Source: Cordylochernes scorpioides (Eukaryota > Arthropoda > Arachnida > Pseudoscorpiones > Chernetidae). From it: a stretch of DNA of 64,000 nt. The notes beneath the pieces were generated by a model. It did not search any database, was not told where the DNA came from, and saw only the letters and a list, made by a program, of their open reading frames with translations. Shown one piece after another: positions 19,501 through 63,790 of this stretch. The number at the start of each line of letters is the position of its first letter. Positions within the stretch are counted from its first letter, which is position 1. The DNA lies in the NCBI GenBank assembly GCA_030710605.1, contig CP092869.1:14453295-14517294 (forward strand). Reading direction: 5' to 3'. The position numbers were made by a program, and so were the translations under genes.

Positions 19501-22500
19501 GTAGTAACATAAAGGTAACCAAGGTTCCTGGAGAGTATCCATAGATCGCCAACTACCCGGGCTGTCCTGTAGTTTAGGAGTCTGTCTTGGTAGCCTTAGT
19601 AGTAACATAAAGGTAACCAAGGTTCCTGGAGTGTATCCATTGATCGCCAACTACCCGGGCTGACCTGTAGTTTAGGAGTCTGTCTTGGTAGCCTTAGTAG
19701 TAACATAAAGGTAACCCAGGCTCCTGGAACGTATCCATAGATCGCCAACTACCCGGGCTGACCTGTAGTTTAGGAGTCTGTCTTGGTAGCCTTAGTAGTA
19801 ACATAAAGGTGACCCAGGCTCCAGGAGTGCATCCATAGCTCGCCAACTACCCGGGCTGACCTGTAGTTTAGGAGTCTGTCTTGGTAGCCTTAGTAGTAAC
19901 ATAAAGGTAACCAAGGTTCCTGGAGAGTTGTAGAAATTAAACTCTTTAAAACGATCATTAAAACAATAATAAACAATAAGAGGAGCTTCTTGTGTAGATT
20001 TCTTTATTACCGCAAGCTTTCGAACAGAACGTTCTTCATCGGGCGTGGATAGTAAAACGTGCTCGTTTTACTATCCACGCCCGATGAAGAACGTTCTGTT
20101 CGAAAGCTTGCGGTAATAAAGAAATCTACACAAGAAGCTCCTCTTATTGTTTATTATTGTTTTAATGTTCCTGGAGAGTATCCATAGATCGCCAACTACC
20201 CGGGCTGACCTGTAGTTTAGGAGTCTGTCTTGGTAGCCTTAGTAGTAACATAAAGGTAACCCAGGCTCCTGGAACGTATCCATAGATCGCCAACTACCCG
20301 GGCTGTCCTGTAGTTTAGGTCTTGGTAGCCTTAGTAGTAACATAAAGGTAACCCAGGCTCCAGGAGTGCATCCATAGCAGGCCAACTACCCGGGCTGACC
20401 TGTAGTTTAGGAGTCTGTCTTGGTAGCCTTAGTAATAACATAAAGGTAACCCAGGCTCCAGGAGTGCATCCATAGCTCGCCAACTACCCGGGCTGTCGTG
20501 TAGTTTAGGAGTCTGTCATGGTAGCCTTAGTAGTAACATAAAGGTAACCAAGGTTCCTGGAGTGTATCCATTGATCGCCAACTACCCGGGCTGTCCTGTA
20601 GTATAGGAGTCTGTCTTGGTAGCCTTAGTAGTAACATAAAGGTAACCAAGGTTCCTGGAGAGTATCCATAGATCGCCAACTACCCGGGCTGTCGTGTAGT
20701 ATAGGAGTCTGTCTTGGTAGCCTTAGTAGTAACATAATGGTAACCAAGGTTCCTGGAGTGTATCCATTGATCGCCAACTACCCGGGCTGTCCTGTAGTTT
20801 AGGAGTCTGTCTTGGTAGCCTTAGTAGTAACATAAAGGTAACCAAGGTTCCTGGAGAGTATCCATAGATCGCCAACTACCCGGGCTGTCCTGTAGTTTAG
20901 GAGTCTGTCTTGGTAGCCTTAGTAGTAACATAAAGGTAACCAAGGTTCCTGGAGAGTATCCATAGATCGCCAACTACCCGGGCTGTCCTGTAGTTTAGGA
21001 GTCTGTCTTGGTAGCCTTAGTAGTAACATAAAGGTAACCAAGGTTCCTGGAGTGTATCCATTGATCGCCAACTACCCGGGCTGTCGTGTAGTTTAGGAGT
21101 CTGTCTTGGTAGCCTTAGTAGTAACATAAAGGTAACCAAGGTTCCTGGAGTGTATCCATAGATCGCCAACTACCCGGGCTGTCCTGTAGTTTAGGAGTCT
21201 GTCTTGGTAGCCTTAGTAGTAACATAAAGGTAACCAAGGTTCCTGGAGTGTATCCATAGATCGCCAACTACCCGGGCTGTCCTGTAGTTTAGGAGTCTGT
21301 CTTGGTAGCCTTGGTAGTAACATAAAGGTAACCCAGGCTCCTGGAGTGTATCCATAGATCGCCAACTACCCGGGCTGTCGTGTAGTTTAGGAGTCTGTCT
21401 TGGTAGTCTTAGTAGTAACATAAAGGTAACCAAGGTTCCTGGATGGAATCCATTGATCGCCAACTACCCGGGCTGTCCTGTAGTATAGGAGTCTGTCTTG
21501 GTAGCCTTAGTAGCAACATTAAGGTAACCAAGGTTCCTGGAGTGTATCCATAGATCGCCAACTACCCGGGCTGTCCTGTAGTTTAGGAGTCTGTCTTGGT
21601 AGCCTTAGTAGTAACATAAAGGTAACCCAGGCTCCTGGAGTGTATCCATAGATCGCCACCTACCCGGGCTGTCCTGTAGTTTAGGAGTCTGTCTTGGTAG
21701 CCTTAGTAGTAACATAAAGGTAACCAAGGTTCCTGGAGTGTATCCATTGATCGCCAACTACCCGGGCTGTCCTGTAGTATAGGAGTCTGTCTTGGTAGCC
21801 TTAGTAGTAACATAAAGGTAACCAAGGTTCCTGGAGTGTATCCATAGATCGCCAACTACCCGGGCTGTCCTGTAGTTTAGGAGTCTGTCTTGGTAGCCTT
21901 AGTAGTAACATAAAGGTAACCCAGGCTCCTGGAGTGTATCCATAGATCGCCAACTACCCGGGCTGACCTGTAGTTTAGGAGTCTGTCTTGGTAGCCTTAG
22001 TAGTAACATAAAGGTAACCAAGGTTCCTGGAGAGTATCCATAGATCGCCAACTACCCGGGCTGTCCTGTAGTATAGGAGTCTGTCTTGGTAGCCTTAGTA
22101 GTAACATAAAGGTAACCAAGGTTCCTGGAGAGTATCCATAGATCGCCAACTACCCGGGCTGTCCTGTAGTTTAGGAGTCTGTCTTGGTAGCCTTAGTAGT
22201 AACATAAAGGTAACCAAGGTTCCTGGAGTGTATCCATTGATCGCCAACTACCCGGGCTGACCTGTAGTTTAGGAGTCTGTCTTGGTAGCCTTAGTAGTAA
22301 CATAAAGGTAACCCAGGCTCCTGGAACGTATCCATAGATCGCCAACTACCCGGGCTGACCTGTAGTTTAGGAGTCTGTCTTGGTAGCCTTAGTAGTAACA
22401 TAAAGGTGACCCAGGCTCCAGGAGTGCATCCATAGCTCGCCAACTACCCGGGCTGACCTGTAGTTTAGGAGTCTGTCTTGGTAGCCTTAGTAGTAACATA

Positions 22501-24945
22501 AAGGTAACCAAGGTTCCTGGAGAGTATCCATAGATCGCCAACTACCCGGGCTGACCTGTAGTTTAGGAGTCTGTCTTGGTAGCCTTAGTAGTAACATAAA
22601 GGTAACCCAGGCTCCTGGAACGTATCCATAGATCGCCAACTACCCGGGCTGTCCTGTAGTTTAGGTCTTGGTAGCCTTAGTAGTAACATAAAGGTAACCC
22701 AGGCTCCAGGAGTGCATCCATAGCAGGCCAACTACCCGGGCTGACCTGTAGTTTAGGAGTCTGTCTTGGTAGCCTTAGTAATAACATAAAGGTAACCCAG
22801 GCTCCAGGAGTGCATCCATAGCTCGCCAACTACCCGGGCTGTCGTGTAGTTTAGGAGTCTGTCATGGTAGCCTTAGTAGTAACATAAAGGTAACCAAGGT
22901 TCCTGGAGTGTATCCATTGATCGCCAACTACCCGGGCTGTCCTGTAGTATAGGAGTCTGTCTTGGTAGCCTTAGTAGTAACATAAAGGTAACCAAGGTTC
23001 CTGGAGAGTATCCATAGATCGCCAACTACCCGGGCTGTCGTGTAGTATAGGAGTCTGTCTTGGTAGCCTTAGTAGTAACATAATGGTAACCAAGGTTCCT
23101 GGAGTGTATCCATTGATCGCCAACTACCCGGGCTGTCCTGTAGTTTAGGAGTCTGTCTTGGTAGCCTTAGTAGTAACATAAAGGTAACCAAGGTTCCTGG
23201 AGAGTATCCATAGATCGCCAACTACCCGGGCTGTCCTGTAGTTTAGGAGTCTGTCTTGGTAGCCTTAGTAGTAACATAAAGGTAACCAAGGTTCCTGGAG
23301 AGTATCCATAGATCGCCAACTACCCGGGCTGTCCTGTAGTTTAGGAGTCTGTCTTGGTAGCCTTAGTAGTAACATAAAGGTAACCAAGGTTCCTGGAGTG
23401 TATCCATTGATCGCCAACTACCCGGGCTGTCGTGTAGTTTAGGAGTCTGTCTTGGTAGCCTTAGTAGTAACATAAAGGTAACCAAGGTTCCTGGAGTGTA
23501 TCCATAGATCGCCAACTACCCGGGCTGTCCTGTAGTTTAGGAGTCTGTCTTGGTAGCCTTAGTAGTAACATAAAGGTAACCAAGGTTCCTGGAGTGTATC
23601 CATAGATCGCCAACTACCCGGGCTGTCCTGTAGTTTAGGAGTCTGTCTTGGTAGCCTTGGTAGTAACATAAAGGTAACCCAGGCTCCTGGAGTGTATCCA
23701 TAGATCGCCAACTACCCGGGCTGTCGTGTAGTTTAGGAGTCTGTCTTGGTAGTCTTAGTAGTAACATAAAGGTAACCAAGGTTCCTGGATGGAATCCATT
23801 GATCGCCAACTACCCGGGCTGTCCTGTAGTATAGGAGTCTGTCTTGGTAGCCTTAGTAGCAACATAAAGGTAACCAAGGTTCCTGGAGAGTATCCATAGA
23901 TCGCCAACTACCCGGGCTGTCGTTTAGTTTAGGAGTCTGTCTTGGTAGCCTTAGTAGTAACATAAAGGTAACCAAGGTTCCTGGAGTGTATCCATTGATC
24001 GCCAACTACCCGGGCTGTCCTGTAGTATAGGAGTCTGTCTTGGTAGCCTTAGTAGTAACATAAAGGTAACCAAGGTTCCTGGAGTGTATCCATAGATCGC
24101 CAACTACCCGGGCTGTCCTGTAGTTTAGGAGTCTGTCTTGGTAGCCTTAGTAGTAACATAAAGGTAACCCAGGCTCCTGGAGTGTATCCATAGATCGCCA
24201 ACTACCCGGGCTGTCGTGTAGTTTAGGAGTCTGTCTTGGTAGCCTTAGTAGTAACATAAAGGTAACCCAGGCTCCTGGAGTGTATCCATTGATCGCCAAC
24301 TACCCGGGCTGTCCTGTAGTATAGGAGTCTGTCTTGGTAGCCTTAGTAGTAACATAAAGGTAACCAAGGTTCCTGGAGTGTATCCATAGATCGCCAATTA
24401 CCCGGACTGTCGTGTAGTTTAGGAGTCTGTCTTGGTAGCCTTAGTAGTAACATAAAGGTAACCAAGGTTCCTGGAGTGTATCCATAGATCGCCAACTACC
24501 CGGGCTGTCCTGTAGTTTAGGAGTCTGTCTTGGTAGCCTTAGTAGTAACATAAAGGTAACCCAGGCTCCTGGAGTGTATCCATAGATCGCCAACTACCCG
24601 GACTGTCCTGTAGTATAGGAGTCTGTCTTGGTAGCCTTAGTAGTAACATAAAGGTAACCAAGGTTCCTGGAGTGTATCCATAGATCGCCAACTACCCGGA
24701 CTGTCGTGTAGTTTAGGAGTCTGTCTTGGTAGCCTTAGTAGTAACATAAAGGTAACCAAGGTTCCTGGAGTGTATCCATAGATCGCCAACTACCCGGGCT
24801 GTCCTGTAGTTTAGGAGTCTGTCTTGGTAGCCTTAGTAGTAACATAAAGGTAACCAAGGTTCCTGGAGTGTATCCATAGATCGCCAACTACCCGGACTGT
24901 CCTGTAGTTTAGGAGTCTTGTCTTGATAGCCTTAGTGAACCAGTT
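16584..24945. repeat. 98-bp satellite array, about 83 monomers
   Basis: The monomer runs from GGTAACCAAGGTTCCTGGAG through ATCCATAGATCGCCAACTAC, CCGGGCTGTCCTGTAGTTTA and GGAGTCTGTCTTGGTAGCC to TTAGTAGTAACATAAA. Most units are 98 bp; a few lack GGAGTCTGT (about 18894, 20316, 22662). Variant positions (CCAAGGTT or CCCAGGCT, GTCC, GACC or GTCG, TTTAGG or TATAGG) recur in the same order at an offset of 2,346 bp (compare 20341 with 22687, and 21191-21463 with 23537-23809). This shows a higher-order duplication. The 90-codon minus-strand frames here are by-products. The array is interrupted once, at 19929-20166. Confidence 0.98.
19957..20166. mobile_element. Palindromic HH-D element inserted in the satellite
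   Basis: Two arms of about 100 bp are perfect inverted copies around GTGCTC (about 20059-20064). With a short non-palindromic leader (19930-19956) they interrupt a monomer. GTTCCTGGAGAGT occurs on both sides (19916-19929 and 20167-20179), a 13-bp target duplication. Each arm holds an HH-D motif: CCGATGAA, stem II GAAC...GTTC, then GAAAGCTT (plus 20075-20116, minus 20007-20048). The matching position in the duplicated block (near 22510) lacks the insertion. Confidence 0.85.
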
Positions 24946-27080: not shown

Positions 27081-27133
27081 TTGTTCGCTCCTGACGAGGA
27101 CAAAAGATTTTTGTCGAAACGTCGAGACAATAA
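27081..27133 (+). ncRNA. Hammerhead ribozyme motif HH-A (PLE type)
   Basis: The core is CTGACGA (27091-27097) and GAAA (27116-27119), with a predicted cleavage site after C27123 in GUC. Helix I pairs CTC (27088-27090) with GAG (27124-27126), then TTGTT with AATAA across a 2x2 internal loop. Stem II is GACAAAA/TTTTGTC, with one extra G before it. Helix III is only AC/GU with no loop, so it can close only between two molecules (ACGU is self-complementary). It is followed by AATAAAAAG. The copy at 54234-54286 preserves all these elements. HHRs of this compact form are known from Penelope-like elements. Confidence 0.75.
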
Positions 27134-27234: not shown

Positions 27235-27840
27235 CAAAACAATTTTATACTGTATTTACTGCAATCATACATTGAGATCCTTGCTAATCAGAATGGTGAA
27301 CCCTACAAACTGTTTTGCAAGTTTAATATACCGGGGATCGGTGGAAGGATGGTCTAAACTAGGGGTCGGCAAACTTTTGAGTAGGAAGAGTCAAAAATTA
27401 CAATTTACAAAATATCAAAGTTTTTAAAGAGCCACAAAATATTTTTCTTGCCAACAATAAACAGTACTCACATAAATAATATTTACATATGGAACTATAT
27501 AAAGAACTTCACATCCAAAGAGCCGCATGTGGCTCTCGAACCGCAGTTTACCGACCCCTAGTCTAAACCGTTGGTTTTCGACCGCCTATGATCCGGGATT
27601 GAATCCTGCATTGGACACCTTTTCGAATTAAAAAATAAAAAGTGCTCCAATGTTCCCCCTATTCTTGCAAAAGTCCAACCCCACCAGCGAGTACAAGTAA
27701 CCAAACGGGGCACTGGCATATTTTTGCCAATTTTTTGGCAAAAGTCGAACTGCTTTTCGGGTGCATTTACAGTAAAAAGCAGTCGCCAACTTCTGCCCAC
27801 CATGATTATCATGGTCTGTATCACGTGTACTAGGGATAAT
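27235..27840 (+). mobile_element. tRNA-derived SINE split by a hAT MITE
   Basis: The head starts GGGGATCGGTGGAAGGATGG (27333). It resumes after the inserted MITE with CGTTGGTTTTCGACCG and a B-box-like GGGATTGAATCC (27595-27606), and the body ends near ACGTGTACTAGGGATAATAA (27840). The same SINE lies on the minus strand at 43079-43379 and 63007-63317. The 5' flank (27240-27330) is a diverged PAL-1 half. Transcription by RNA polymerase III from the tRNA-like head is the usual mode for SINEs. Confidence 0.75.
27360..27560. mobile_element. hAT-type MITE with 8-bp target duplication
   Basis: Termini TAGGGGTCGGCAAAC and GTTTACCGACCCCTA are inverted, and GTCTAAAC flanks both sides (27352-27359, 27561-27568). 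The 201-bp interior has the AAAGAGCCGCATGTGGCTCT segment common to this MITE type. The 8-bp duplication is characteristic of hAT transposases, which must be supplied in trans. Confidence 0.92.
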
Positions 27841-28099
27841 AAAAATATATATATACCATACCGCTGGAATAATTATTGTTTTTGAATGTTTTATTTTATA
27901 TCTATACTGACCTCTTGGAAAAAGGTCTTTTAAATGAACTATGGATATAAGTTTTGAGAGAGAGAGAGAGAAATTGAGATTGAAATTGATTTATTACAAT
28001 GTCCATATAAGATTATATAAGGGTAAATACGGAATAAATATAAATATGAATAAATATGATTATATAATGATAAATATAGGAAAAATAGATATAAACAGA

Positions 28100-30129: not shown

Positions 30130-30470
30130 TAGGTATAATACAATATAATGCGTCTTATGATTGTAGAACGACATTTGAAATTATCCCGCATGTGTTTCTT
30201 TTGAATGAAAAATCGAAATTTTATTTTAAGGACAAATAACGATTATTTCTAACCTTAGGGATGATGTATGAAAGGATGAATTGTGAAGAGTAATGATAAA
30301 CGGAAAATTAAAAGTATCCAGGGATGGGAATTTTCCGTTCATCATTACTCTTCACAATTCATCCTTTCATACTTCATCCCTAAGGTTAGAAATAGTCGTT
30401 GTTTCTCTTTAAAATAAATTACGATTTTTTCATTCAAAAGAAACACATGCGGGATAATTTCATATGTTGG
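30130..30470. mobile_element. PAL-2 inverted repeat
   Basis: Near-perfect arms (GCATGTGTTTCTTTTGAATG on the left and its inverse on the right) surround AAAGTATCCAGGGATGGGAA, a remnant of the tRNA-like core. It is non-coding. Confidence 0.85.
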
Positions 30471-30534
30471 TCTACATATAGAGGTATATGAAAAAATAGT
30501 ACAAATGTGATATTGTACTGGGATAAGGTGCATA

Positions 30535-30939
30535 ATTATGAAAAAAGGCATCTCCTTATCGTGCAACTAAAAGTTGCTGATGGCTTGCGCCATCTATCGG
30601 AATAAACATAAACTATTCTCGTTGATTTCTAATTATTCCAGAATTGGCCAAATACCCATTCTTGATTAATCAAGAAAAGCAAACCACGGACGCGTGTCGG
30701 ACTGTTGGCCCTCATCGTCCAGTTATTTGGTCGTTGAGGTACAGCTTGCACAACGCTGACGAGGGCCAACAGCCCGAAACGCGTACATGGTTAGCTTTTC
30801 TTGATTAATCAAGAATGGGTATTTGGCCAATTCTGGAATAATTAAAAATCAACGAGAATAGTTGATATTTATTCCGATAGATGGCGCAAGCCATCAGCAA
30901 CTTTCAGTTGCACGATAAGGAGATGCCTTTTTTCATAAT
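30535..30939. mobile_element. HH-B palindromic element
   Basis: The arms run inward from AAAAAAGGCATCTCCTTATC through GCGCCATCTATCGGAATAAA and TTGATTAATCAAGAAAAGC. The central part of each arm carries hammerhead sequence: recognisable on the plus strand (30750-30792), decayed on the minus strand (left arm, GGACGCGTGTCGGACTGTTG). Confidence 0.85.
30750..30792 (+). ncRNA. Hammerhead motif HH-B, partly decayed
   Basis: CTGACGA (30756-30762), a perfect 4-bp stem II GGGC...GCCC, GAAAC and GCGUA. The residue at the cleavage position is A (GUA, still an allowed NUH). Helix I (ACAACG with CATGGT) has two mismatches relative to ACCACG/CGTGGT in the copy at 42806. Helix III is the self-complementary ACGCGU. 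Confidence 0.65.
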
Positions 30940-31298: not shown

Positions 31299-31558
31299 TA
31301 TAACTTTTGAAACAGAATTACAAAAACAGAGACATAAGACGCCAAAATTCTATTTTATTAATTTGATTAAAATAGCTGTTGAAAGCCAGTGTAAATATTT
31401 GTATTTATTTAATTTGTTTATGTATCAAAAGAGACAAAGGTCGCCTCTCCTGTCAAAATAGACGTCAAAACTAGACGCCATCTATTGACCGTCGCCGCAA
31501 ACTAGCGGCCTCGGGTCGGTGACAAAGCCACAACACCAGCTTTGGCAAACTGAAAAGC

Positions 31559-31613
31559 GTCCATCTAGAGACCATGGTTTCGGGCTAATGGCCCTCGTCA
31601 GTCTAGGGCGGAC
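31559..31613 (-). ncRNA. Hammerhead ribozyme HH-C, core intact (minus strand)
   Basis: On the minus strand: helix I CTAGA with TCTAG plus GTCC with GGAC, CTGACGA, stem II GGGC/GCCC, GAAA, helix III ACCATGGT, cleavage site GUC. All invariant residues are present. It is the inverted partner of 31627-31679. Confidence 0.85.
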
Positions 31614-31626
31614 TTTATTCCATGAG

Positions 31627-31679
31627 ATCCATGAGACTGACGAGGGCCATCAGCCCGAAACCATGGTGTCTAGGTGGAC
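31627..31679 (+). ncRNA. Hammerhead motif HH-C with cleavage-site change
   Basis: CTGACGA (31637-31643), stem II GGGC/GCCC and GAAACCATGGT are intact. The nucleotide at the cleavage position is G (31668) where the other copies have C, and helix I is weakened by ATGAGA in place of CCTAGA. NUG is not a permitted site, so this copy should be inactive. Confidence 0.75.
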
Positions 31680-31829
31680 GCTTTTCAGTTTGCCAAAGTT
31701 GGTGTTGTGGCTTTGTCACCGACCCGAGGCCGCTAGTTTGCGGCGACGGTCAATAGATGGCGTCTAGTTTTGACGTCTATTTTGACGGGAGAGGCGACCT
31801 TTGTCTCTTTTGATCAACATCCTCCCGGC

Positions 31830-33909: not shown

Positions 33910-33923
33910 ATATAGTAATGGCT

Positions 33924-38934: not shown

Positions 38935-39335
38935 AAAAAAGGCATCTCCTTATCGTGCAACTGAAAGTTACTGATGACTTACGCCATCTATCGGAATAAA
39001 TATCAACTATTCTCGTTGATTTTTAATTATTCCAGAATTGGCCAAATACCCATTCTTGATTAATCAAGAAAAACTAACGGGCTGTTGGCTCTCATCAGCG
39101 TGGTGTAAGCTGTACCTCAACGACCAAAAACCTAGTCATCCTGAAAAATCATGAATGGGTGATGAGGGCTAACAGCCCGAAACGCGTCCGTGGTTAGCTT
39201 TTCTTGATTAATCAAGAATGGGTATTTGGCCAATTCTTGGAATAATTAAAAGTCAACGAGAATAGTTGATATTTCTTCCGATAGATGGCGCAAGCCATCA
39301 GCAACTTTCTGTTACACGATAAGGAGGTGCCTTTT
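38935..39335. mobile_element. HH-B palindromic element
   Basis: The outer arms AAAAAAGGCATCTCCTTATC ... ATAAGGAGGTGCCTTTTTC and the inner TTGATTAATCAAGAA blocks are inverted. The left arm keeps GGGCTGTTGGCTCTCATCAG (a minus-strand core lacking its GAAAC half); the right arm has the motif at 39158-39195. Confidence 0.85.
39158..39195 (+). ncRNA. Hammerhead motif HH-B with altered 5' side
   Basis: GTGATGA stands in place of CTGATGA (C3 changed to G). Stem II GGGC/GCCC, GAAAC, self-complementary ACGCGT and site GTC are intact. The 5' strand of helix I is lost, so it is unlikely to be active. Confidence 0.55.
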
Positions 39336-42539: not shown

Positions 42540-42995
42540 GATAATTCTGGAATAATTAAAAATCAACGAGAATAGTTGATATTTATTCCGATAGATAGCG
42601 TAAGCCATCAGCAACTTTCAGTTACACGATAAGGAGATGCCTTTATTATGATTTATGCACCTTATCCCAGTACAATATCACATTTGTACTATTTTTTTTC
42701 ACATTGTGTCGCGGTCTCACGCAATTCTGGCCTTAACTACCCGTTTCATGATTTTTTAGGATGTCTGAATGAGCAGTTTTTTTTGGTTGTTGAGGTACAG
42801 CTTGCACCACGCTGATGAGTGCCAACAGCCTGAAACGCGTCCGTGGTTAGCTTTTCTTGATTAATCAAGAATGGGTATTTGGCTAATTCTGGAATAATTA
42901 AAAATCAACAGGAATAGTTTATATTTATTCCGATAGATGGCGCAAGCTATCAGCAATTTTCAGTTGCACGATAAGGAGGTGCCTTTTTTATAATG
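42540..42995 (+). mobile_element. HH-B repeat, tandem arrangement
   Basis: An HH-B right-arm sequence (GGAATAATTAAAAATCAACG to GATAAGGAGATGCC) at 42545-42640 is followed by the leader CACGCAATTCTGGCCTTAAC (42718) and a second HH-B unit with hammerhead (42806) and right arm ending at 42985. The two units are in direct orientation, so a dimeric transcript is conceivable. Confidence 0.8.
42806..42847 (+). ncRNA. Hammerhead ribozyme motif HH-B
   Basis: Helix I ACCACG with CGTGGT (6 bp, perfect), CTGATGA (42812-42818), GAAA (42832-42835), helix III ACGCGT (self-complementary), cleavage after C42841 in GUC. Stem II is weakened (GTGCC...GCCT instead of GGGCC...GCCC). All invariant core bases are present. 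Confidence 0.75.
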
Positions 42996-50107: not shown

Positions 50108-50442
50108 TTATAAAACACTTAAAGTTGCACCGCATAAGTTTCTTTTCTGTGAAAAATCAATATTTATTTCAAAGAGAAATATTTACTATTTCTAACCTTT
50201 TTGGATGAAGTATGAAAGGGTGAAAATATGAAGAGTAATGGCGAACGGAAAAATAAAAGTGTCCAGGGGCGGGAACACCACCCCTGGACACTTTTATTTT
50301 TCCGTTCGCCATTACTCTTCATATTTTCACCCTTTCATACTTCATCCAAAAAGGTTAGAAATAGTAAATATTTCTCTTTGAAATAAATATTGATTTTTCA
50401 CAGAAAAGAAACTTATGCGGTGCAACTTTAAGTGTTTTATAA
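50108..50442. mobile_element. PAL-2 palindrome, complete
   Basis: Almost perfect 160-bp arms run from ATAAAACACTTAAAGTTGCA inward to AAAGTGTCCAGGGGCGGG, with a tiny loop (GGGAACACC region). The centre is the tRNA-like acceptor end (CCAGGGG/CCCCTGG), so this is a head-to-head dimer of a tRNA-derived unit. Confidence 0.92.
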
Positions 50443-51234: not shown

Positions 51235-51550
51235 AGATAAGGGTCGCCTCTCCCGTCAAAATAGACGTCAAAAACCAGACGCCATCTATTGACCGTCGCC
51301 GCAAACTAGCGCCTCAGGTCGGTGACAAAGCCACAACACCAGCTTTGGCAAACTGAGAAGCGTCCACCTAGAGACCATGGTTTCGGGCTAATGGCCCTCG
51401 TCAGTCCTAGGGCGGACTTTATTCCATGAGATCCACACTGGATCTAATGGAATCTTGACAATCTGCCAAAGAGGTGTTTAGCAGGCAAAGTGGCTGGGCC
51501 ATATCTATGGCTAAAATATAGATGGAAATTCCTCCCGGCAAAATTTCCAT
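51235..51550 (-). mobile_element. HH-C element, single arm plus internal region
   Basis: On plus it starts GTCGCCTCTCCCGTCAAAAT, runs through the hammerhead at 51362-51417 and then the internal part shared with 55990-56090 (AATCTTGACAATCTGCCAAA, GGTGTTTAGCAGGC). This shows the non-palindromic form of the family. Confidence 0.8.
51362..51417 (-). ncRNA. Hammerhead ribozyme HH-C, core intact
   Basis: Minus strand: CTGACGA, stem II GGGC/GCCC, GAAA, ACCATGGT, GUC, helix I CCTAG-G-A with TCTAGG (one bulged G). Core residues are all present. Confidence 0.8.
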
Positions 51551-54233: not shown

Positions 54234-54286
54234 TTGTTTACTCCTGACGAGGACAAAATAATTTTGTTGAAACATCGAGGTAATAA
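54234..54286 (+). ncRNA. Hammerhead ribozyme motif HH-A (PLE type)
   Basis: CTGACGA (54244-54250), stem II GACAAAA/TTTTGTT, GAAA (54269-54272), site AUC with cleavage after 54276. Helix I CTC/GAG plus TTGTT/AATAA. Compared with 27081 the internal loop and the site differ but the pairing is kept. The helix III strand ACAU is no longer perfectly self-complementary. Confidence 0.7.
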
Positions 54287-55182: not shown

Positions 55183-55487
55183 TCTTCTTCTTCTTTCTTA
55201 TCTCCACACTGTGTGAAGTAGAATGCGTTTGCCATTGTCATTAAGACTGAGAGAACTATTCAGTGGCAGGCCGACTTAGCTCCAAAAGAAATGGCCACCT
55301 CTGACATGAGGAACAGACGCCATGTGAAGCCGCTCCTAACATGGAGTACAAACGCTGCTCATCCTGTATCCCTGGAGCCCTTACAGGGTACTATCAGCCG
55401 GGCCAGCTGAGCCCAGGTTTTTAGTGAGCTTGTTACTGCTCCCCCTCCTCCTTTTTCATCCGGGCTTGGGACCGGCAAGGGCGGAGT
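55183..55487 (-). mobile_element. NLTR3 3'-UTR fragment
   Basis: Same family as 48718, with the TCTTCTTCTTTCTTATCTCC tail at the left. Confidence 0.7.
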
Positions 55488-55909
55488 TGGTATAGTTAAG
55501 TTAGTTTATCGAACGTAAAATGGAATATTACTGTAGATTATTGTAAAGAAAGTATCGTAGGGAACAATATGTATAAGAAAAGTAGCGCCATACAAAAACT
55601 TTAACTGTATGGTAGATTAAGTTGGTGAAACTACGAGAAGCTAGGGCCTTCCAATATATATATGTCATAATTTGCATAATACCCAAGATGTATAATTTCT
55701 TTTCGCCAAAATAAGAATGTAAATATGTTAAGCTTGTGTTAAATTGTAAATATGGAAATTTACCAATCTATAAAAACTGTACAAAAATAAACGTGGCAGA
55801 CCTCGCGCGCGAATGCTACGGCACGTCGCTGCTCACTTGGCTGGAACTAATTATTGATGATTGCATGCATAACGGTTACACCTTTCCATTCGATCACGAG
55901 AGGATATTC

Positions 55910-56265
55910 ATCTATAAAGGTCGCCTCTCCCGTCAAAATAGACGTCAAAACTCGACGATTGACCGTCGCCGCAAAGTAACAATCTCGGGTCGGCGACAAA
56001 GCCACAAGGCCTTGCCACTTTGCCAGCAAAACACCTCTTTGACAGATTGTGAAGATTCAATTAGATCCCTTGTGGATCTCATGGAATAAAGTCCGCCCTA
56101 GACTGACGAGGGCCATTAGCCCGAAACCATGGTCTCTAGGTGGACGCTTCTCAGTTTGCCAAAGCTGGTGTTGTGGCTTTGTCACCGACCTGAGACCGCT
56201 AGTTTGCGTCGACGGTCAATAGATGGCGTCTAGCTTTGATGTCTATTTTGACGGGAGAGGTGTAT
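55910..56265 (+). mobile_element. HH-C element, full non-palindromic copy
   Basis: Ends GTCGCCTCTCCCGTCAAAAT and its inverse (ATTTTGACGGGAGAGG) are terminal inverted repeats. Between them lie an internal region (TTTGCCAGCAAAACACC, GATCTCATGGAATAAAGTCC) and the hammerhead 56091-56145. This is the best template of the family. Confidence 0.85.
56091..56145 (+). ncRNA. Intact hammerhead ribozyme (HH-C)
   Basis: Helix I: CCTAGA (56097-56102) with TCTAGG (56135-56140) and GTCC (56091-56094) with GGAC (56142-56145), separated by a GC/T internal loop. CUGACGA at 56103-56109, stem II GGGC/GCCC with a CATTA loop, GAAA at 56123-56126, helix III ACC-AT-GGT, cleavage expected after C56134 (GUC). Every invariant residue is present. 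The helix III strand ACCAUGGU is self-complementary, allowing a dimeric form. Confidence 0.9.
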
Positions 56266-56329
56266 ATATAGCAGCATATCCCTCGCAAATTAAAAAAACT
56301 GTCATTTTAGATAATAAAGTAAACTTCTA

Positions 56330-56530
56330 AAATTGAATATCTTTTATTAAGCGCTTTTCGAGCTTTCAAGATAACGCCCTTATAGGTTAAAAACACAGCT
56401 GATATTATGTAAATTCTATAATGTACATATAACTTGCTATAACATAGTTGAGTTTCATTTTGTATCAATTTTACTGTAGAAGGCCGTTATTCCGAAAGCT
56501 CGAAGAACGTTTAATAAAAGATACTCATCC
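56330..56530. repeat. Inverted pair of HH-D motifs
   Basis: Minus-strand CTATAAGGGCGTTATCTTGA then AAGCTCG (about 56340-56395), and plus-strand CTGTAGAAGGCC...CCGAAAGCTCG (56474-56503), flanked by inverted TCTTTTATTAAGCG / CGTTTAATAAAAGA. Head-to-head arrangement, 80 bp apart. Confidence 0.7.
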
Positions 56531-56576
56531 TTAGAGGTTTAATTTGTTATTTAAAATTTCTATCAAATGATAATAT

Positions 56577-57109: not shown

Positions 57110-57303
57110 TAAGCATGGTTTCACGCCATTCTGGCCTTAACTACCCGTTTCATGATTTTTCGGGATGCCTGAATGACCAAATATTTTGGTCGTTGAGGTA
57201 CAGCTTGCACCACGGTTGCACGTGGTTAGCTTTTCTTGATTAATTACGAATGGATATTTGGCCAATCTTGGAATAATTAAAAATCAACGAAAATAGTTAA
57301 TAT
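57110..57303 (+). mobile_element. HH-B repeat, left part, core deleted, split by Gypsy
   Basis: TTCTGGCCTTAACTACCCGT, GTTGAGGTACAGCTTGCACC, then ACGGTTGCACGTGGTTAGC where the hammerhead core has been replaced by a short sequence. It continues GGAATAATTAAAAATCAACG and is cut at ATAT (57300-57303). The right part resumes at 62695. Confidence 0.85.
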
Positions 57304-57545
57304 TGTAGTGTTGAAAATAATTAGCCAGTCGGTTGACCAACTCAACAAACAAAAATATAGTTTTTATTATTCTATATAAAGAGAAAGAAGGAAATATCTA
57401 AAAGATTAAAATAGTAAACAACGAGCGAAGAAGAAGGAATCAGTCTCGTGGCCACGCGGCCTTGCAAGGGTTACTTCCACAGGCAGTGACGTCAGCTCCA
57501 AGGTTGCCGAGCCAGCAATTTCACTATGAAGTCGGCTTTGGTACA
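57304..57545 (-). repeat. 3' LTR (242 bp)
   Basis: Reads the same as the 5' LTR by eye. On the minus strand it begins TGTACCAAAGCCGACTTC and ends AACACTACA. It contains TTTATATAG followed by AATAAAAAC, plausible TATA and polyadenylation signals. Confidence 0.95.
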
Positions 57546-57548
57546 ATA

Positions 57549-57559
57549 CTCCCTCTCCC
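57549..57559 (-). other. Polypurine tract
   Basis: GGGAGAGGGAG on the minus strand, three bases upstream of the 3' LTR. The expected primer for plus-strand DNA synthesis. Confidence 0.85.
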
Positions 57560-57580
57560 ATGAGAAGCTGTTCCACAGCT

Positions 57581-60500
57581 TTATCTCAGTTCCTCCTCTT
57601 CTCCAGACGTAGAGCTATCCACACTTGACGAATCTTCCTGTCTTGATGGGCCATAGTACGGCTTCATCCTGAGGATATGGACGGTGTCACGTCCTTTTTG
57701 TCTTTTGTCACTCTTGCCGAATGCTTCCACTTCGTATGTCACATCCGATATCTTTTTAATGACCTTGTAGGGACCAAAGTACCTTCTTAGAAGTTTCTCA
57801 GACAGTCCCACTCGTCGGATAGGTGTAAAAATCCACACTAGATCTCCTGGTTGGTAGACTTTTCCTTTATGCCGAGCGTCGTAATTCAATTTGTTGGTTT
57901 CTTGAGCCTTGAATATGTGATGTCGGGCTATTTGTCGCGCCTCTTCAGCTCTGCTCGCCACCAATTGAATAAATTCTTCCCCCTCGGACGCGCTACTGTA
58001 GGGAAAGATAGTGTCGAGGGTCGTCTCCGCTTCCCTCCCATGGACCAGAAAGAATGGCGTGAAGCCAGTTGATTCTTGCCTCGCTGTATTGTAGGCAAAT
58101 GTGATGAATGGTAGCATCTCATCCCAGTTTTTCTGATCGAGGTCCATGTACATTGATAACATGTCGGCAATTGTCCTGTTCAATCTTTCTGTCAGGCCGT
58201 TAGTCTGAGGATGATACGCCGTCGTTGTCTTCTTTTTGATGTGACAGTTTTTGGTTAGCTCCTGAATGAGTCTCGACTGGAAGTTTCGACCCCGATCCAT
58301 CACTATTTCTCGAGGAGCCCCATGCTTCAAAATAACTTCCTCCAAAAGAAATTTTGCAATTTCTTGGGCTTCCCCCGAACCTAGACTTTGGGTAACGGCG
58401 TATTTGGTTAGATAGTCGGTGCAAACAACTATCCACTTCTTCTTCCCTTGCGATATGGGGAAGCGTCCCAGCAAATCTATACCGACTTTTTGGAATGGTC
58501 GGTCCGGTGGTGGTATGGGTCTCAGATAGCCAGGAGGAAGTTGTGGCACACTCTTGCGACGCTGGCAGTCCTGACAATGGCCAACATACTTTCTCACGCT
58601 TCTGTACATTCCTGGCCAAAAGAACCTTCTCCTAATTCTGTCGTAGGTTTTTGCAAAACCCAGATGTCCAGCAGTAGGTGCGTCGTGCAAGTCCCCCAAG
58701 ATCTCCATTCGAAGGTGTCTTGGGATTACTAACAGTAAAGGTAGGCCAGTCGGGTCATAATTCTTTCTATAGAGGATCCCATTGACAACCTCGAACTTGT
58801 TGTCTTTCTTGGCGGGTGACGGCTGAGATATCTCCTTGATTATTCCTGTAATGTAAGGGTCTTTCTCTTGTTCTTTACTGATGTCGCTCAAAAGGAATAA
58901 TGTGGGGATGTCGTCATTGAAAACCTTTTCCGTATTTTCAATGGGATTTCTTGACAGACAGTCGGCGTCCTTGTGCATTCGCCCTGTCTTGTAGACAATG
59001 GAAACGTCGTACTCCTGAAGTCTCAACGCCCACCTCGCCAATCTACCTGCCGGATCTTTAAGATTGGTCAACCAGCACAGAGAATGATGGTCAGTTATAA
59101 CTTTGAAGGGGCGTCCAAACAAATAGGGCCTAAATTTTCCAATTGCCCATACTATGGCGAGACATTCTCTCTCCGTGGTAGAATAGTTTTTCTCGGATTT
59201 TAAAAGGGTACGCGAAGCATAGGCGATGACCTTTTCACCGTTTCCTTGCTTTTGTGCAAGCACGGCACCTATTCCATATCCGCTGGCATCTGTGTGTAGT
59301 TCAGTTGGAGCGTCATCATCGAAATGTCCCAATACTGGTTTTGACGTCAAGGCATTCTTCAGTTTTTGAAATGCTCTCTCTTGGTCTGTGTTCCATTGAA
59401 ACTTTGTTCCTTTAGATAGTAGCGAATTGAGGGGCCGCGCAATATCTGCGTAGTTCTTAATAAACCGCCTATAATAAGATGACAAGCCAAGGAAGCTTCT
59501 TAGCTGCTGTAAGTTCTTAGGGATCGGGAATTGACTGACCGCCTTAATCTTATCATCATCCGGTCGGATTCCATCCTTATTCACTTGGTGTCCAAGGATC
59601 TTGATGTTGCTGGCTCCAAAAGAACACTTTCCGGGATTGAGCTTCAGCCCAGCTCTCTTGAAACAATTCAGGACCACCTCTAGTCGTCTCAAATGATCTG
59701 GAAAATTATCCGCAAATATAACGACGTCGTCCAAGTAACACAAACATATCGTCCATCGCAGGCCCTTCAGGAGATTATCCATCATCCTTTCGAAAGTTGC
59801 GGGCGCGTTACACAGCCCAAAGGGCATGACCTTAAACTCAAAAAGACCGTCCGGTGTAATAAAGGCAGTCTTTTCCCGATCAGCTTCATCAATGCCAATT
59901 TGCCAGTAGCCCGCTTTGAGATCAATTGTGGAGTAGATATTCGCCCCCTTCAAGCAATCAAGAGCGTCATCAACCCTCGGCAATGGATAGACATCTTTTT
60001 TCGTCATCTTATTCAAACCTCTGTAGTCCACACAAAAGCGAACAGACCCGTCTTTCTTTCTTACCAGAACGACCGGTGAGGCCCAAGGACTCTCAGAGGG
60101 CTGAACGACTCCCATTTCCATCATTCTGTCAACTTCTTCTTGAATTACCTTCCTTTCAGAGGGTGAGACCCGATACGGCATCTTTTTTGATGGTTTGGCG
60201 TCGCCCGTATTTATCCTGTGCTTAGTAATTATCCTAGAAGTAGTTTTATCGATCGGACCGAACACTTCCGAAAAGTTTTCAAGAAGCTCCAGAAGTTTGG
60301 TCTTGTGAAGCAGAGGAAGCTCAGGAGAAATGCAGGCCGAGATTTGTTCCATTCTCATAAGCTGCTCGGAGCTCCCGACACTTTCTTCGCGACACTCGAA
60401 ATTGGTTATCCTGATGGGTGACTTGGCACTTTTGGACTCATTATTCGAATGATTTTCCATGATTGGGCAAACTTCTTGCGGCTGGACTCTGAATAAATGG

Positions 60501-61087
60501 GCTAGGCACATGCCCGAAGGGATTGTTTTCGGATGCTTGCTAAAATTGGTCACCCATAGATACGCTTGGCCATGCCATATGGTAAGGTAGGACGATGGTA
60601 CAAATAATTCTTTCTCTAAGAAAAGTTGCCTCACACCTTCAACTGCGCAATTTTTAATCCCAGTTACGCTAGGCGTCCGGGTCAATACCCTCTTGGTACA
60701 CTTTGTAGGAATGATGTCGTCCGATGCTAAGTGAAGTTGTGCCGCGGATTGGTCCTCATTTAACGTCTCTGAAAACGAAATTTCAGAATGACCACAGTCA
60801 ATAACTGCTTTTGAAGACTCGAGAAAATCCCATCCCAAGATGGCGTCGTGGCTGCAATTTGGGAGAACGAGAAATTCGAAGATCCGCTGAAGGCCATTTA
60901 TTTCTACTCTTAGGCGACATTTTCCTAGTGGAGCAACAAAACGATTGTTTGCGACCCTTAAAGTTATGTTCGGGCTCTCAAACATTATAGCTTTCATCTT
61001 CTTTCTAAAATTGCTGGAAACGACCGAATATGACGCCCCTGTGTCAATGAGAGCTTCGACATGACGGCCATTGATACTCACCCACAT
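57581..61087 (-). CDS. pol: Pol polyprotein (protease-RT-RNase H-integrase)
   Basis: A single clean frame of 1,168 codons from the first ATG; it stays open upstream to 61186, so translation probably enters by frameshifting from gag. Protease with LIDTGAS (DTG at residues 16-18). Reverse transcriptase about 310-490 with VDYRGLN, MPFGLCNAPATF and YLDD at 451-454. RNase H about 580-705 (TDASGYGIGAVL, D600; ITDHHSL). Integrase with an HHCC zinc-binding region (H801, H808, C838, C841) and catalytic D871, D931, E967, a 35-residue DD35E spacing. A GPY motif at 1105-1107, typical of Ty3/Gypsy integrases. All key catalytic residues are present, so this enzyme could work if supplied with gag. Expression would be from the 5' LTR at 62453-62694. 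Confidence 0.96.
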   Translation of the reverse strand: MWVSINGRHVEALIDTGASYSVVSSNFRKKMKAIMFESPNITLRVANNRFVAPLGKCRLRVEINGLQRIFEFLVLPNCSHDAILGWDFLESSKAVIDCGHSEISFSETLNEDQSAAQLHLASDDIIPTKCTKRVLTRTPSVTGIKNCAVEGVRQLFLEKELFVPSSYLTIWHGQAYLWVTNFSKHPKTIPSGMCLAHLFRVQPQEVCPIMENHSNNESKSAKSPIRITNFECREESVGSSEQLMRMEQISACISPELPLLHKTKLLELLENFSEVFGPIDKTTSRIITKHRINTGDAKPSKKMPYRVSPSERKVIQEEVDRMMEMGVVQPSESPWASPVVLVRKKDGSVRFCVDYRGLNKMTKKDVYPLPRVDDALDCLKGANIYSTIDLKAGYWQIGIDEADREKTAFITPDGLFEFKVMPFGLCNAPATFERMMDNLLKGLRWTICLCYLDDVVIFADNFPDHLRRLEVVLNCFKRAGLKLNPGKCSFGASNIKILGHQVNKDGIRPDDDKIKAVSQFPIPKNLQQLRSFLGLSSYYRRFIKNYADIARPLNSLLSKGTKFQWNTDQERAFQKLKNALTSKPVLGHFDDDAPTELHTDASGYGIGAVLAQKQGNGEKVIAYASRTLLKSEKNYSTTERECLAIVWAIGKFRPYLFGRPFKVITDHHSLCWLTNLKDPAGRLARWALRLQEYDVSIVYKTGRMHKDADCLSRNPIENTEKVFNDDIPTLFLLSDISKEQEKDPYITGIIKEISQPSPAKKDNKFEVVNGILYRKNYDPTGLPLLLVIPRHLRMEILGDLHDAPTAGHLGFAKTYDRIRRRFFWPGMYRSVRKYVGHCQDCQRRKSVPQLPPGYLRPIPPPDRPFQKVGIDLLGRFPISQGKKKWIVVCTDYLTKYAVTQSLGSGEAQEIAKFLLEEVILKHGAPREIVMDRGRNFQSRLIQELTKNCHIKKKTTTAYHPQTNGLTERLNRTIADMLSMYMDLDQKNWDEMLPFITFAYNTARQESTGFTPFFLVHGREAETTLDTIFPYSSASEGEEFIQLVASRAEEARQIARHHIFKAQETNKLNYDARHKGKVYQPGDLVWIFTPIRRVGLSEKLLRRYFGPYKVIKKISDVTYEVEAFGKSDKRQKGRDTVHILRMKPYYGPSRQEDSSSVDSSTSGEEEELR

Positions 61088-61167
61088 GTAGTTATCGTCT
61101 AGGTCGGCTCGCGTCTGTGGAGGCTTTAAACAATGTCCGACCTTACCTCCCTTACAGGCCGTGCTTC

Positions 61168-61460
61168 CTAGTTTTCCTGCACGTCTCTATGAGGAGATCG
61201 GCTAGGAGTCCGGCCTGGCGATCTAGAGTAGCGACGTCCTGTCATCGGTCTCCCGCGTCCAGGATAGGGAGAAGAACTTCTTGGTAAATTGCGTCGAGGA
61301 GAGTTGTTCCGATCAGATTGTTCCATATGCGGCGTCATAAAGTCGGCCATATAGATGGATCCGGGTCTTCTACGGCCATAATAAAATCGGTTTTTGGGTC
61401 CTACTTGGTTCGTTCTCATCACGGTCGCGGCGTCGATCCCAACAATGCTTTGCGACATGT
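61168..61460 (-). CDS. gag: Gag C-terminal basic tail (shifted frame)
   Basis: This frame joins the zinc-knuckle region of gag across a frame break at the A5 run (61391-61395). It is Arg/Ser/Pro-rich (RRRPG, SPYPGRGRPM, RSPGRTPSRSP), as expected for a nucleocapsid tail, and ends with TAG at 61168. The last codons before that stop form GGAAAAC (61171-61177), overlapping the start of the pol frame in the -1 register. Confidence 0.7.
61171..61177 (-). promoter_or_regulatory. Candidate -1 frameshift site between gag and pol
   Basis: Minus strand GGAAAAC read as G GAA AAC in the gag-tail frame, directly before TAG. The pol frame is -1 relative to it and is open from 61186. The position is right for programmed -1 frameshifting, though the heptamer is not a canonical X-XXY-YYZ. 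Confidence 0.55.
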
Positions 61461-62350
61461 CCCGGTCTATTGCAATAAAAGCATATGGGAATGTTTTCTC
61501 TGGTGCGGAATTCGTCCGTTTTCCTTCTCACCGCTTCCCCTGCATTTTGTTGTCCACTTCGGAAATTCTTGACCGCCCTTCCGGAGTGGAACACTGGTGC
61601 TTTGTCAATGGGTGCTAGATTTTGTTCGACTCTCTGCCAAACTCTATCTTCTAATCCCTGCGGAGGAGGAAGATTATCTAGTTCATTCGGAGCAGATCGA
61701 AGCTCCTCCCTGATGATCTCTCTGATCATTTCCTTTAAAGGGTGGTACTCATTTTCATTAATCGCCGAAACGGTGGGGATTCTCTCAAATCTAACACTGC
61801 TGATTCTATTTTTATTTAGCTTTTCAATACGCCGGCAGTGTTGAGTGAATTCCCCGGTCGTTGTCACTTCAATTGCAAGAAGGGCCCGGTAAATGTTTTC
61901 AGCCACTCCTTTCATGAGGTGGCCCACCCTGTCCTCCTCCGACATGTTCGGGTTCAGTTGTCGACAGAGGTTCAGCACGTCCTGGATGTAGAGTTCGACC
62001 GACTCGTCTGGCTTTTGCGCTCTTACCTTGAGGGACGATTCAATCCTTCTGGCGTAGTCTTCTTTATCACCGAACGTTCTGGTGAATTCTTCTTTAAACG
62101 TATTCCATGTCGTGATGCTTTCCTCTACGTTGTCGAACCAGCATCTCGCTGCTCCTTCCAGAAAGAAGACTACATTGGCCAAGCACATTGATTCGTCCCA
62201 TCCATTGTAGGCAGCAACGCGGCTGTAATCTTTCAACCAGAGATGGGCGAGTTCAGAACCTTTTCCGGAGAAATTCGGGGGGTTTCTTGGTTGTTGCAGA
62301 TATGTGAAAGCTGCCGGCTGCACATGCGGCTTTTCTTCTTCGTTCACCAT
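61370..62350 (-). CDS. gag: Gag polyprotein, capsid and zinc knuckle
   Basis: The first ATG is at 62350 (an in-frame TTG lies upstream at 62398). The capsid-like region has FSGKGSELAHLWLKDY and CWFDNVEESITTWNTFKEEF, the usual retrotransposon gag core, and a CCHC zinc knuckle CFYCNRPGHVAKHC (residues about 290-303 from this ATG). The frame runs into TAG at 61370 a few codons past an A5 run (61391-61395). The expected basic tail continues in another frame, so this copy has a +1-type break (one base extra, or two missing, in the run). It could also be a sequencing error in a homopolymer. Confidence 0.88.
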   Translation of the reverse strand: MVNEEEKPHVQPAAFTYLQQPRNPPNFSGKGSELAHLWLKDYSRVAAYNGWDESMCLANVVFFLEGAARCWFDNVEESITTWNTFKEEFTRTFGDKEDYARRIESSLKVRAQKPDESVELYIQDVLNLCRQLNPNMSEEDRVGHLMKGVAENIYRALLAIEVTTTGEFTQHCRRIEKLNKNRISSVRFERIPTVSAINENEYHPLKEMIREIIREELRSAPNELDNLPPPQGLEDRVWQRVEQNLAPIDKAPVFHSGRAVKNFRSGQQNAGEAVRRKTDEFRTRENIPICFYCNRPGHVAKHCWDRRRDRDENEPSRTQKPILLWP

Positions 62351-62434
62351 TTCGACCAAGAGTGGTGGCAAACTTTGTAAACGTCGGCTTCTTCTCAACT
62401 TGCCGTCCAGGTTAAAATACTAGAAGGGAATCTA

Positions 62435-62450
62435 CCCGGCGTCTCCACCA
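62435..62450 (-). other. Candidate primer-binding site
   Basis: Minus-strand TGGTGGAGACGCCGGG begins two bases after the 5' LTR. The TGG start matches a tRNA CCA end. I cannot name the tRNA with confidence. Confidence 0.6.
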
Positions 62451-62452
62451 GA

Positions 62453-62694
62453 TGTAGTGTTGAAAATAATTAGCCAGTCGGTTGACCAACTCAACAAACA
62501 AAAATATAGTTTTTATTATTCTATATAAAGAGAAAGAAGGAAATATCTAAAAGATTAAAATAGTAAACAACGAGCGAAGAAGAAGGAATCAGTCTCGTGG
62601 CCACGCGGCCTTGCAAGGGTTACTTCCACAGGCAGTGACGTCAGCTCCAAGGTTGCCGAGCCAGCAATTTCACTATGAAGTCGGCTTTGGTACA
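62453..62694 (-). repeat. 5' LTR (242 bp)
   Basis: Upstream LTR for the minus-strand element; it reads as identical to 57304-57545. Presumed promoter of gag-pol. Confidence 0.95.
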
Positions 62695-62770
62695 ATATTT
62701 ATTCAGATAGATGGCGTAAGCCATCAGCAACTTTCAGTTGCACGATAAGGAGATGCCTTTTTCATAATTA
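62695..62770 (+). mobile_element. HH-B repeat, right part after the Gypsy insertion
   Basis: Starts with the duplicated ATAT and continues TTATTCAGATAGATGGCGTA, CCATCAGCAACTTTCAGTTG, GATAAGGAGATGCC. Together with 57110-57303 it forms one pre-insertion HH-B repeat. Confidence 0.9.
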
Positions 62771-63006: not shown

Positions 63007-63317
63007 TTTTTTTTTTTGCTTATCCCTAGTACACGTGGTACAGACCATGTTAATCATGGTGGGTAGAAATAGGCGACTGCTTTTACTGTAAGTGCACCAC
63101 ATGTCTACACATGTGAAAAACAGTTCGACTTTGAACTTACAAATGTGTCTGAGCCCCGTTTGGTTACTTGCACTCGCTGGTGGGGTTGGACATTTGCAAG
63201 AATCGGGGGCGATTGGAGCATTTTTTTAAACATAAAAAGTACCCAATGCGGGAATCGAACCAGGGTCGTAGCGGTCGAAAACCAACGGTGTAGACCATTC
63301 TTCCACACCGATCTCCT
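63007..63317 (-). mobile_element. tRNA-derived SINE
   Basis: Near-identical flanks CCCATCAATG (62997-63006) and CCCAACAATG (63318-63327). An A-rich tail (T-run on plus, 63007-63017), body with CCAACCCCACCAGCG, and a tRNA-like head with B-box-like TGGTTCGATTCCC (about 63249-63261). Same family as 43079-43379. Confidence 0.8.
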
Positions 63318-63349
63318 CCCAACAATGAAATGTGTTCGTATGACGTCGT

Positions 63350-63600
63350 TTCGTTGTTCTTAAGCCATTATCAAACCAAATACCCATTCGTGATTAATCA
63401 AGAAAAGCTAACCACGTGCACCCGTGGTACAAGCTGTACCTCAACGACCAAAAAACTGGTCATTCTGGCATCCCGAAAAATCATGAAACGGGTGGTTAAG
63501 GCCAGAATTACGTGAGACCATGCTCAAATGCAATGTTCTTGTTTCTTTTTCTGTCTAAGCGAGATTTTTAAAAATTATGGTAAGTTTGAAGTTTTTCTTC
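63350..63600 (-). mobile_element. HH-B leader copy in inverted orientation
   Basis: Minus-strand reading matches 57045-57260: AAACTTACCATAA..., GACAGAAAAAGAAACAAGAA, GGCCTTAACCACCCGTTTCA, GTTGAGGTACAGCTTG, CACGTGGTTAGC, with the hammerhead core deleted in the same way. It forms an inverted flank to the 57-kb copy about 6 kb away. Confidence 0.8.
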
Positions 63601-63719: not shown

Positions 63720-63790
63720 ATTTTAAAACCGTTTCAAGCTTTCGGGCATCTCTCTGACCTACTACAGGAGAACTTATACAATGAATTTTT
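63720..63790 (-). ncRNA. Hammerhead-like motif HH-D, decayed
   Basis: Minus strand: TCCTGTAGTAGGTCAGAGAG, ATGCCCGAAAGCTTGAAAC. CTGTAGT replaces CTGTAGA. Stem II is partly paired. Confidence 0.35.

Follow-up and report, generated by a model that had tools for sequence, protein, structure and literature searches.

Introduction

Short type I hammerhead ribozymes that pair with a second copy through a palindromic helix III are the closest described counterparts of the repeats studied here, which belong to four hammerhead-bearing families (HH-A to HH-D, below A to D) in 64,000 nucleotides of the genome of the pseudoscorpion Cordylochernes scorpioides (contig CP092869.1, positions 14,453,295 to 14,517,294; hereafter the window). 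Newt and viroid RNAs are reported to form double hammerheads with a shared helix III, the same has been proposed or reported for Penelope-like elements, and reviews state that minimal Penelope-like hammerheads may cut as dimers. Penelope-associated small hammerhead variants reportedly cleave as dimers, if one goes by the title of the 2017 paper of Lunse, Weinberg and Breaker. Dimer formation requires a palindromic stem III sequence together with tandem copies (PMC6466107). A dimer was proposed in 2011 for the repeat-type hammerheads of Aedes and Nematostella, which have a palindromic stem III and loop III (legend to Figure S8 of PMC3088659); the Aedes dimer has a stem of 10 bp, compared with 4, 6 or 8 bp here.

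The satellite hammerheads of newt and axolotl (Forster 1988; PMC7229834) lie in tandem units of 330–350 bp and cut better as dimers, while the units of B and C measure 319–352 bp. In the newt-like form, represented by axolotl Amex1, a single base pair closes a palindromic tetraloop, a layout like that of ACGCGU in B. Amex2, with two pairs and a tetraloop, resembles the ACCAUGGU of C; it has been likened to invertebrate hammerheads and is a weak monomer and a better dimer, and invertebrate hammerheads of such a layout cut well as monomers (PMC7229834). The comparison is one of layout and not of helix III letters: the satellites have other sequences and another host, and here there are inverted head-to-head arrays. 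The metazoan non-LTR (long terminal repeat) retrozymes of coral, mussel and axolotl (PMC7229834) share with B and C short tandem non-coding units, a type I hammerhead and large target duplications; minus-then-plus inverted arrays such as those found here are not mentioned in the excerpts of that paper. Penelope-like minimal type I hammerheads (Cervera and de la Pena 2014; Lunse 2017) resemble D, being found in terminal repeats, with a reverse transcriptase and a GIY-YIG-like stretch, a minimal helix III and tandem copies. For Penelope itself, head-to-head inverted copies with palindromic junctions and target duplications of 8–10 bp have been described, and self-priming was inferred (PMC3846280).

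A palindromic helix III with cleavage as a dimer has therefore been published before. The present genome supplies a large, clean group of new examples, a few details of which may be new. It holds natural hammerheads by the tens of thousands, in two architectures, and their helix III would measure 4, 6 or 8 bp if they worked as dimers. How far helix III can shorten before a hammerhead has to pair could be tested directly on this natural series. The ribozyme is also tied here to an odd Penelope-like structure, with a hammerhead in each terminal repeat and arrays of minus followed by plus copies.

Helix III in the window and in the genome

Helix III reads ACGU in A, ACGCGU in B, ACCAUGGU in C and AGCU in D. 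An earlier note on this DNA had claimed that all four are self-complementary, which holds, with D present as core-damaged relics: our inventory of the window comprises 18 copies (A 2, B 8, C 5, D 3), and the palindrome is kept in 12 of them, including all five copies of C, where it is ACCATGGT. Seven of these 12 also have an intact CTGANGA and GAA, one of the seven with G17, and at least one window copy each of A, B and C has an intact core. The CUGANGA...GAA core with the A15.1–U16.1 pair and an NUH cleavage triplet is found in the intact copies of A, B and C and in D copies outside the window. The window D copies lack a type I core, having CCGAUGA instead; each arm reads CCGATGA ... GAA AGCT T, and since U4 is C in each, both are probably inactive. 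These copies are relics only, and intact D relatives occur elsewhere in the 2.62-Gb genome. A further D-like stretch near 63740 (−) contains GAAAGCTT and was rejected as a hammerhead, as it has no CUGANGA core.

Chance does not account for these motifs. A strict descriptor (intact core, helix II of at least 3, helix I of at least 2 and helix III of even lengths 4–12 only) found five motifs in the window, four of them palindromic, against a mean of 0.08 motifs (maximum 2) and 0.01 palindromic motifs (maximum 1) in 100 dinucleotide shuffles of the window. B escapes this descriptor because of helix I or helix II changes in its window copies. A scan of the window with Rfam 15 gave no hammerhead at the gathering threshold nor at E<=10, probably because helix III is so short; microRNA and bicoid rows in that scan were read as chance matches to long inverted repeats. 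The exact pattern CTGATGAN{4,30}CGAAA had no match in the window, and three scans of viral contigs for related patterns gave 1, 25 and 0 stretches.

To count copies in the genome (2,619,359,433 bases in 24 contigs), as the earlier note had proposed, we used the pattern CTGANGAN{6,20}YGAAA–helix III–H, with the reversed pattern as control; the resulting counts are lower bounds for large families. A helix III of ACGU gave 64,303 matches (control 156), ACNNGU 49,700 (control 190) and ACNNNNGU 24,241 (control 408), while the odd-length ACNNNGU gave 1,427 (control 388). With both inner bases free, ANNU gave 141,166 matches (control 9,074). The 31-mer of C, with up to three mismatches, matched 25,892 times against 0 in the control. 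We then looked at lists of 100 places, which are the first along contig C1 and not a random draw. For ACNNGU, 91 of the first 100 listed are palindromic (90 ACGCGU and one ACAUGU), and for ACNNNNGU 85 of 100, every one ACCAUGGU. Helix III is thus far from random genome-wide, and the random, non-palindromic segments that would have spoken against the earlier note did not appear.

The first 100 ANNU matches comprise 50 ACGU, 16 ACAU, 15 AGCU, 7 AUGU, 3 AUUU, 2 AGAU, 2 AUAU and five singletons. Restricting them to a helix II of at least 4 bp leaves 69, with ACGU in 40, AGCU in 13, ACAU in 8, AUGU in 5 and AGGU, ACCU and AAGU in one each. In this 4-nt class 53 of 69 are palindromic, and 13 of the remaining 16 are one CpG transition from ACGU, as ACAU and AUGU each are. 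The G–C pair that the earlier note had remarked on beside the core of D is real, AGCU making up 15 of the 100 unselected and 13 of the 69 selected places. An unbiased sample of 264 kb (20 x 10 kb plus the window) gave 17 rows in a loose scan, 12 of them palindromic. Of the 17, two with TTGANGA resemble chance hits, in two others (L020 and L025) the scan picked a far-off alternative, and a compact cis hairpin of at least 3 bp was found in none of the 17.

Likely cleavage as double hammerheads

From the sequences we consider it likely that these short type I hammerheads cut as double hammerheads with a shared helix III. The hammerhead of each element would have a helix III of only 4, 6 or 8 nt, and two of them, in the likeliest case within a single tandem transcript, would pair through this self-complementary stretch; the resulting double hammerhead would have an uninterrupted helix III of 4, 6 or 8 bp. 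The pair of copies would come from tandem units in B and C and from the two terminal repeats in D. Each core would then cut behind position 17 and release unit-length RNA, perhaps as a circle, which could serve as template for a Penelope-type reverse transcriptase. Cleavage, dimer formation, circles and template use are all steps that we infer.

The energetics of helix III are consistent with this reading. ACGU and AGCU cannot form a cis hairpin at all; the most that ACGCGU can form is 1 bp and a tetraloop (+6.0 kcal/mol), and ACCAUGGU 2 bp and a tetraloop (+2.9 kcal/mol). The intermolecular duplexes of ACGU, AGCU, ACGCGU and ACCAUGGU come to −1.7, −2.5, −7.5 and −11.2 kcal/mol as isolated helices without the core. 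A self-complementary helix III that is too short to be stable in cis, as expected of a double hammerhead, is therefore what these families have. The earlier note had spoken of a 0–2 nt loop, and it was right about the instability in cis and inexact about the loop, there being no hairpin in ACGU and AGCU and a tetraloop in the other two. Its further claim that the ribozymes are built to act as dimers stands in part: same-strand neighbours, from which a dimer could form within one transcript, exist at the DNA level (27 of 100 listed B copies, and the D locus L066), while C need not be dimer-only.

The palindrome could also be a by-product of shortness, each hammerhead working singly with a helix III that is nearly or wholly absent or is a 1–2 bp hairpin, and self-complementarity following from fixed pairs next to the core and inheritance from two ancestral elements. 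ACGU and AGCU become palindromic once two loopless pairs are required, and B and C look related. The 2 bp and tetraloop that C could form in cis are, moreover, the layout of Amex2 and of the invertebrate hammerheads reported as active monomers (PMC7229834), which is why C need not be dimer-only. Yet ACGU and AGCU are unable to pair in cis, the inner bases of ACGCGU and ACCAUGGU are self-complementary too, which a free loop would not require, and the odd length of 7 is rare (1,427 matches against 24,241–64,303). On balance we regard this explanation as unlikely.

Several observations weigh against cleavage as double hammerheads, besides the layout of C. A loopless helix III of 2 bp is palindromic almost by definition, so that A and D alone add little, and copies within one family are not independent of each other. 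ACAU outnumbers AUGU in the ANNU list (16 to 7) although only AUGU could keep a G–U pair, hence old copies show no upkeep of pairing. Single-strand folds of three window copies differ from the active fold: those of A and C contain helices I and II, with GAC of the core paired to GUC at helix III, and that of B at 42812 lacks helix II. A same-strand neighbour within 800 bp accompanies only 27 of the 100 listed B copies, a lower bound under the exact pattern, and we linked none of A, B, C and E (a further family described below) to a protein. Spread may not depend on the ribozyme, since two B copies lack it at an equivalent site, and insertion of one Penelope-like element in vitro did not require hammerhead cleavage (PMC11167929). 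For A, B, C and D alike, cleavage and dimerisation are predictions from DNA.

Two hammerhead architectures

The 4-nt class differs from B and C in more than helix III. Every one of the 69 listed motifs whose helix II has at least 4 bp needs one unpaired nucleotide between CUGANGA and helix II. In 13 hand-picked rows (3 ACGU and 10 AGCU, the latter chosen for AGCU), 51 of 52 helix II cells are paired when one nucleotide is skipped, compared with 20 of 52 in the plain register, and every position of helix II, like pairs 1–3 of helix I, shows several pair types, which is covariation. Helix I is short: pair 4 is mismatched in 12 of the 13 rows, 10 show three pairs and then a mismatch, and in two (L067 and L072) pairs 1–3 fail except for the first position. 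The extra nucleotide is absent from the class with a helix III of 6 or 8 nt. In B the plain register gives at least three helix II pairs in 9 of 12 hand-picked strings, with the variants GGGC/GCCC, GCGC/GCGC and GTGC/GCAC, and C follows the same register with GGGC/GCCC. One C-type copy (L020) has a compensated helix III variant, ACUAUAGU, together with a poor helix I.

We would suggest, with considerable doubt, that the 4-nt class is a structurally distinct and obligately dimeric subclass, defined by a self-complementary helix III of 2 bp, a short helix I and a single unpaired nucleotide, always required, between A9 and helix II. If so, geometry would demand the extra nucleotide, as a shared helix III of 4 bp brings two cores close together, and the class would cut only as a pair. 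A viroid hammerhead with an extra core nucleotide is said to have been described by de la Pena and Flores in 2001, reportedly with the nucleotide placed after A9 in the plus strand of chrysanthemum chlorotic mottle viroid (CChMVd). There it concerns one ribozyme, whereas here it is found throughout the 4-nt class examined. Deleting that viroid nucleotide raised cleavage (PMC11014351). The literature excerpts, which do not cover Lunse 2017 and Cervera and de la Pena 2014 on this point, make no mention of an extra nucleotide before helix II in hammerheads of the 4-nt class, and we do not claim that it is unpublished.

These architectures also bear on the number of origins. The earlier note saw convergence on a palindromic helix III in four families. 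B and C, however, have a near-identical helix II and share the motif ATAGATGGCG, each of whose 11 window occurrences lies inside a B or C copy, and A and D share their architecture with E, a second ACGU family beside A (GGTAACA...TGTTACC). Given the apparent kinship of B with C and the architecture common to A, E and D, two lineages are enough, and we rejected four independent convergences.

Carrier elements and the arrangement of copies

Evidence for a carrier comes from the D locus L066, in which two AGCU hammerheads lie on the same strand 2,709 bp apart, one in each terminal repeat. The repeats are identical over 390 of the 390 bases compared and enclose frames of 309 and 535 codons. The 535-codon frame matches RVT_1 (9.9e-8) and, below the cut-off of 22.6, GIY-YIG (0.37, 11.6 bits); the 309-codon frame matched no Pfam family. 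The motifs GLPKIHK and YVGETGR, also present at L066, are ones we take to be Penelope-like. Given its reverse transcriptase, the weak GIY-YIG match and a hammerhead in each terminal repeat, D is most likely a Penelope-like element. It thus has terminal pseudo-LTRs with a hammerhead, in tandem or inverted copies, and inverted D pairs occur in the window and at L022, L071 and L072. B and C consist of short tandem non-coding units of 319–352 bp with a type I hammerhead, as metazoan retrozymes do, most listed copies being single under the exact pattern. The hammerhead-bearing repeats would therefore be Penelope-like (D) and retrozyme-like (B and C) retroelements.

Tandem spacing is 338–352 bp in B, with one additional spacing of 114 bp, 319 bp in C, 92 bp in E and 739 bp in one D subfamily. 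Some B arrays are regular and of the same sequence, with five copies at 338 bp and, at one locus, two copies on one arm and five on the other with a spacing of 350 bp. Such arrays and the identical repeats of L066 look recent. They are difficult to reconcile with the view that all of these ribozymes are dead relics, out of use and palindromic only by inheritance from formerly active elements. Damaged cores or helices in most window copies and the two B copies without a ribozyme would fit that view, which we find hardly credible.

Among neighbours within 800 bp in the lists of 100 places for the C 31-mer, ACGU and ACNNGU, 33 are head-to-head, 25 same-strand and none tail-to-tail. The 12 arrays of the ACNNGU list have minus and then plus copies (e.g., −−+++++) or a single sign, and the four inverted pairs of the window are all head-to-head. 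As a dimer-forming arrangement head-to-head copies were rejected, because the second arm is antisense; we read them as snap-back products of complementary DNA (cDNA) and not as the working form. At L033, for instance, the join observed would result if the cDNA 3′ end, CTG, annealed to CAG and primed extension. This abundance of head-to-head copies, and the published tie between palindromic Penelope junctions and self-priming (PMC3846280), could mean that the palindrome serves at the DNA or cDNA level, for example as the self-priming site itself. In seven distinct inverted pairs (eight rows), though, the strand turns back upstream of the core or right at the 5′ edge of the core and not at helix III, and such a role is very unlikely.

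Copies and other features of the window

Table 1. Hammerhead family copies and associated features, in window coordinates
Feature	Position	Strand	Helix III	Remarks
HH-A	27091..27123	+	ACGT	core to cleavage base; extra G ahead of helix II
HH-A copy 2	54244..54276	+	ACAT	non-palindromic
HH-B	30756..30785	+	ACGCGT	A17; plus arm of inverted pair 30535-30939
HH-B minus arm	30689..30717	−	ACGCGT	damaged core (CGATGA, GAC)
HH-B	42812..42841	+	ACGCGT	altered helix II
B copy, 5′-truncated	42543-42698			ahead of HH-B 42812 (partial tandem)
HH-B	39159..39189	+	ACGCGT	C3 to G; plus arm of inverted pair 38926-39345
HH-B copy	43390	+	decayed
HH-B copy	39100	−		without ribozyme region
HH-B element copy	57190..57240	+		no ribozyme between helix I strands (CCACG-GTTGCA-CGTGG)
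HH-B element copy	63395..63430	−		ribozyme missing at equivalent site (CCACG-GGTGCA-CGTGG)
HH-C	31570..31601	−	ACCATGGT	minus arm of inverted pair 31424-31814
HH-C	31637..31668	+	ACCATGGT	G at position 17; plus arm, truncated at core, helix I broken
HH-C	51373..51404	−	ACCATGGT
HH-C	56103..56134	+	ACCATGGT	best-paired copy, helix I 6 bp
HH-C remnant	6180..6203	+	ACCATGGT	5′ core part missing
D insertion	19928..20166			239 bp, inverted head-to-head arms, inside 98-bp satellite array
Target duplication	19916-19927 and 20167-20178			12 bp, GTTCCTGGAGAG, flanking D insertion
HH-D arm	20081..20109	+	AGCT	core CCGATGA (U4 to C)
HH-D opposite arm	20014..20042	−	AGCT	identical sequence, CCGATGA

The two B copies without a ribozyme have lost it in the same manner (CCACG-GNTGCA-CGTGG), as if they formed a ribozyme-free lineage or as if the reverse transcriptase had jumped across helix I. 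A B-family copy is interrupted by a Ty3-type LTR retrotransposon (57304-62697) with gag and pol frames and two identical LTRs of 245 bp, which is probably young given that identity; the shared motif resumes behind the LTR at 62707. Inverted repeats in which we recognised no ribozyme lie at 30162-30476, 50108-50442 (arms 97.9% alike), 33923-34151, 56304-56557 and 63832-63988.

A second kind of ribozyme is hinted at by four matches to Twister-P1, all below the gathering score of 67.2: 40341-40395 (+, 46.3 bits), 55439-55493 (−, 40.5 bits), 49031-49085 (−, 28.7 bits) and 7266-7307 (−, 26.2 bits). They belong to one dispersed repeat family, and the alignment of the first has a conserved core and shortened inner stems. 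Truncated twisters have been described at the 5′ end of RTE retrotransposons (PMC7761336). A further repeat family (27561-27845, 43079-43372 and 63012-63306) has a tRNA-like B-box by eye and is perhaps a tRNA-derived short interspersed nuclear element. Satellite arrays occupy 1-4556 (unit 30 bp, x151.6), 16579-24936 (unit 98 bp, x84.9) and 43842-44782 (unit 160 bp, x5.9).

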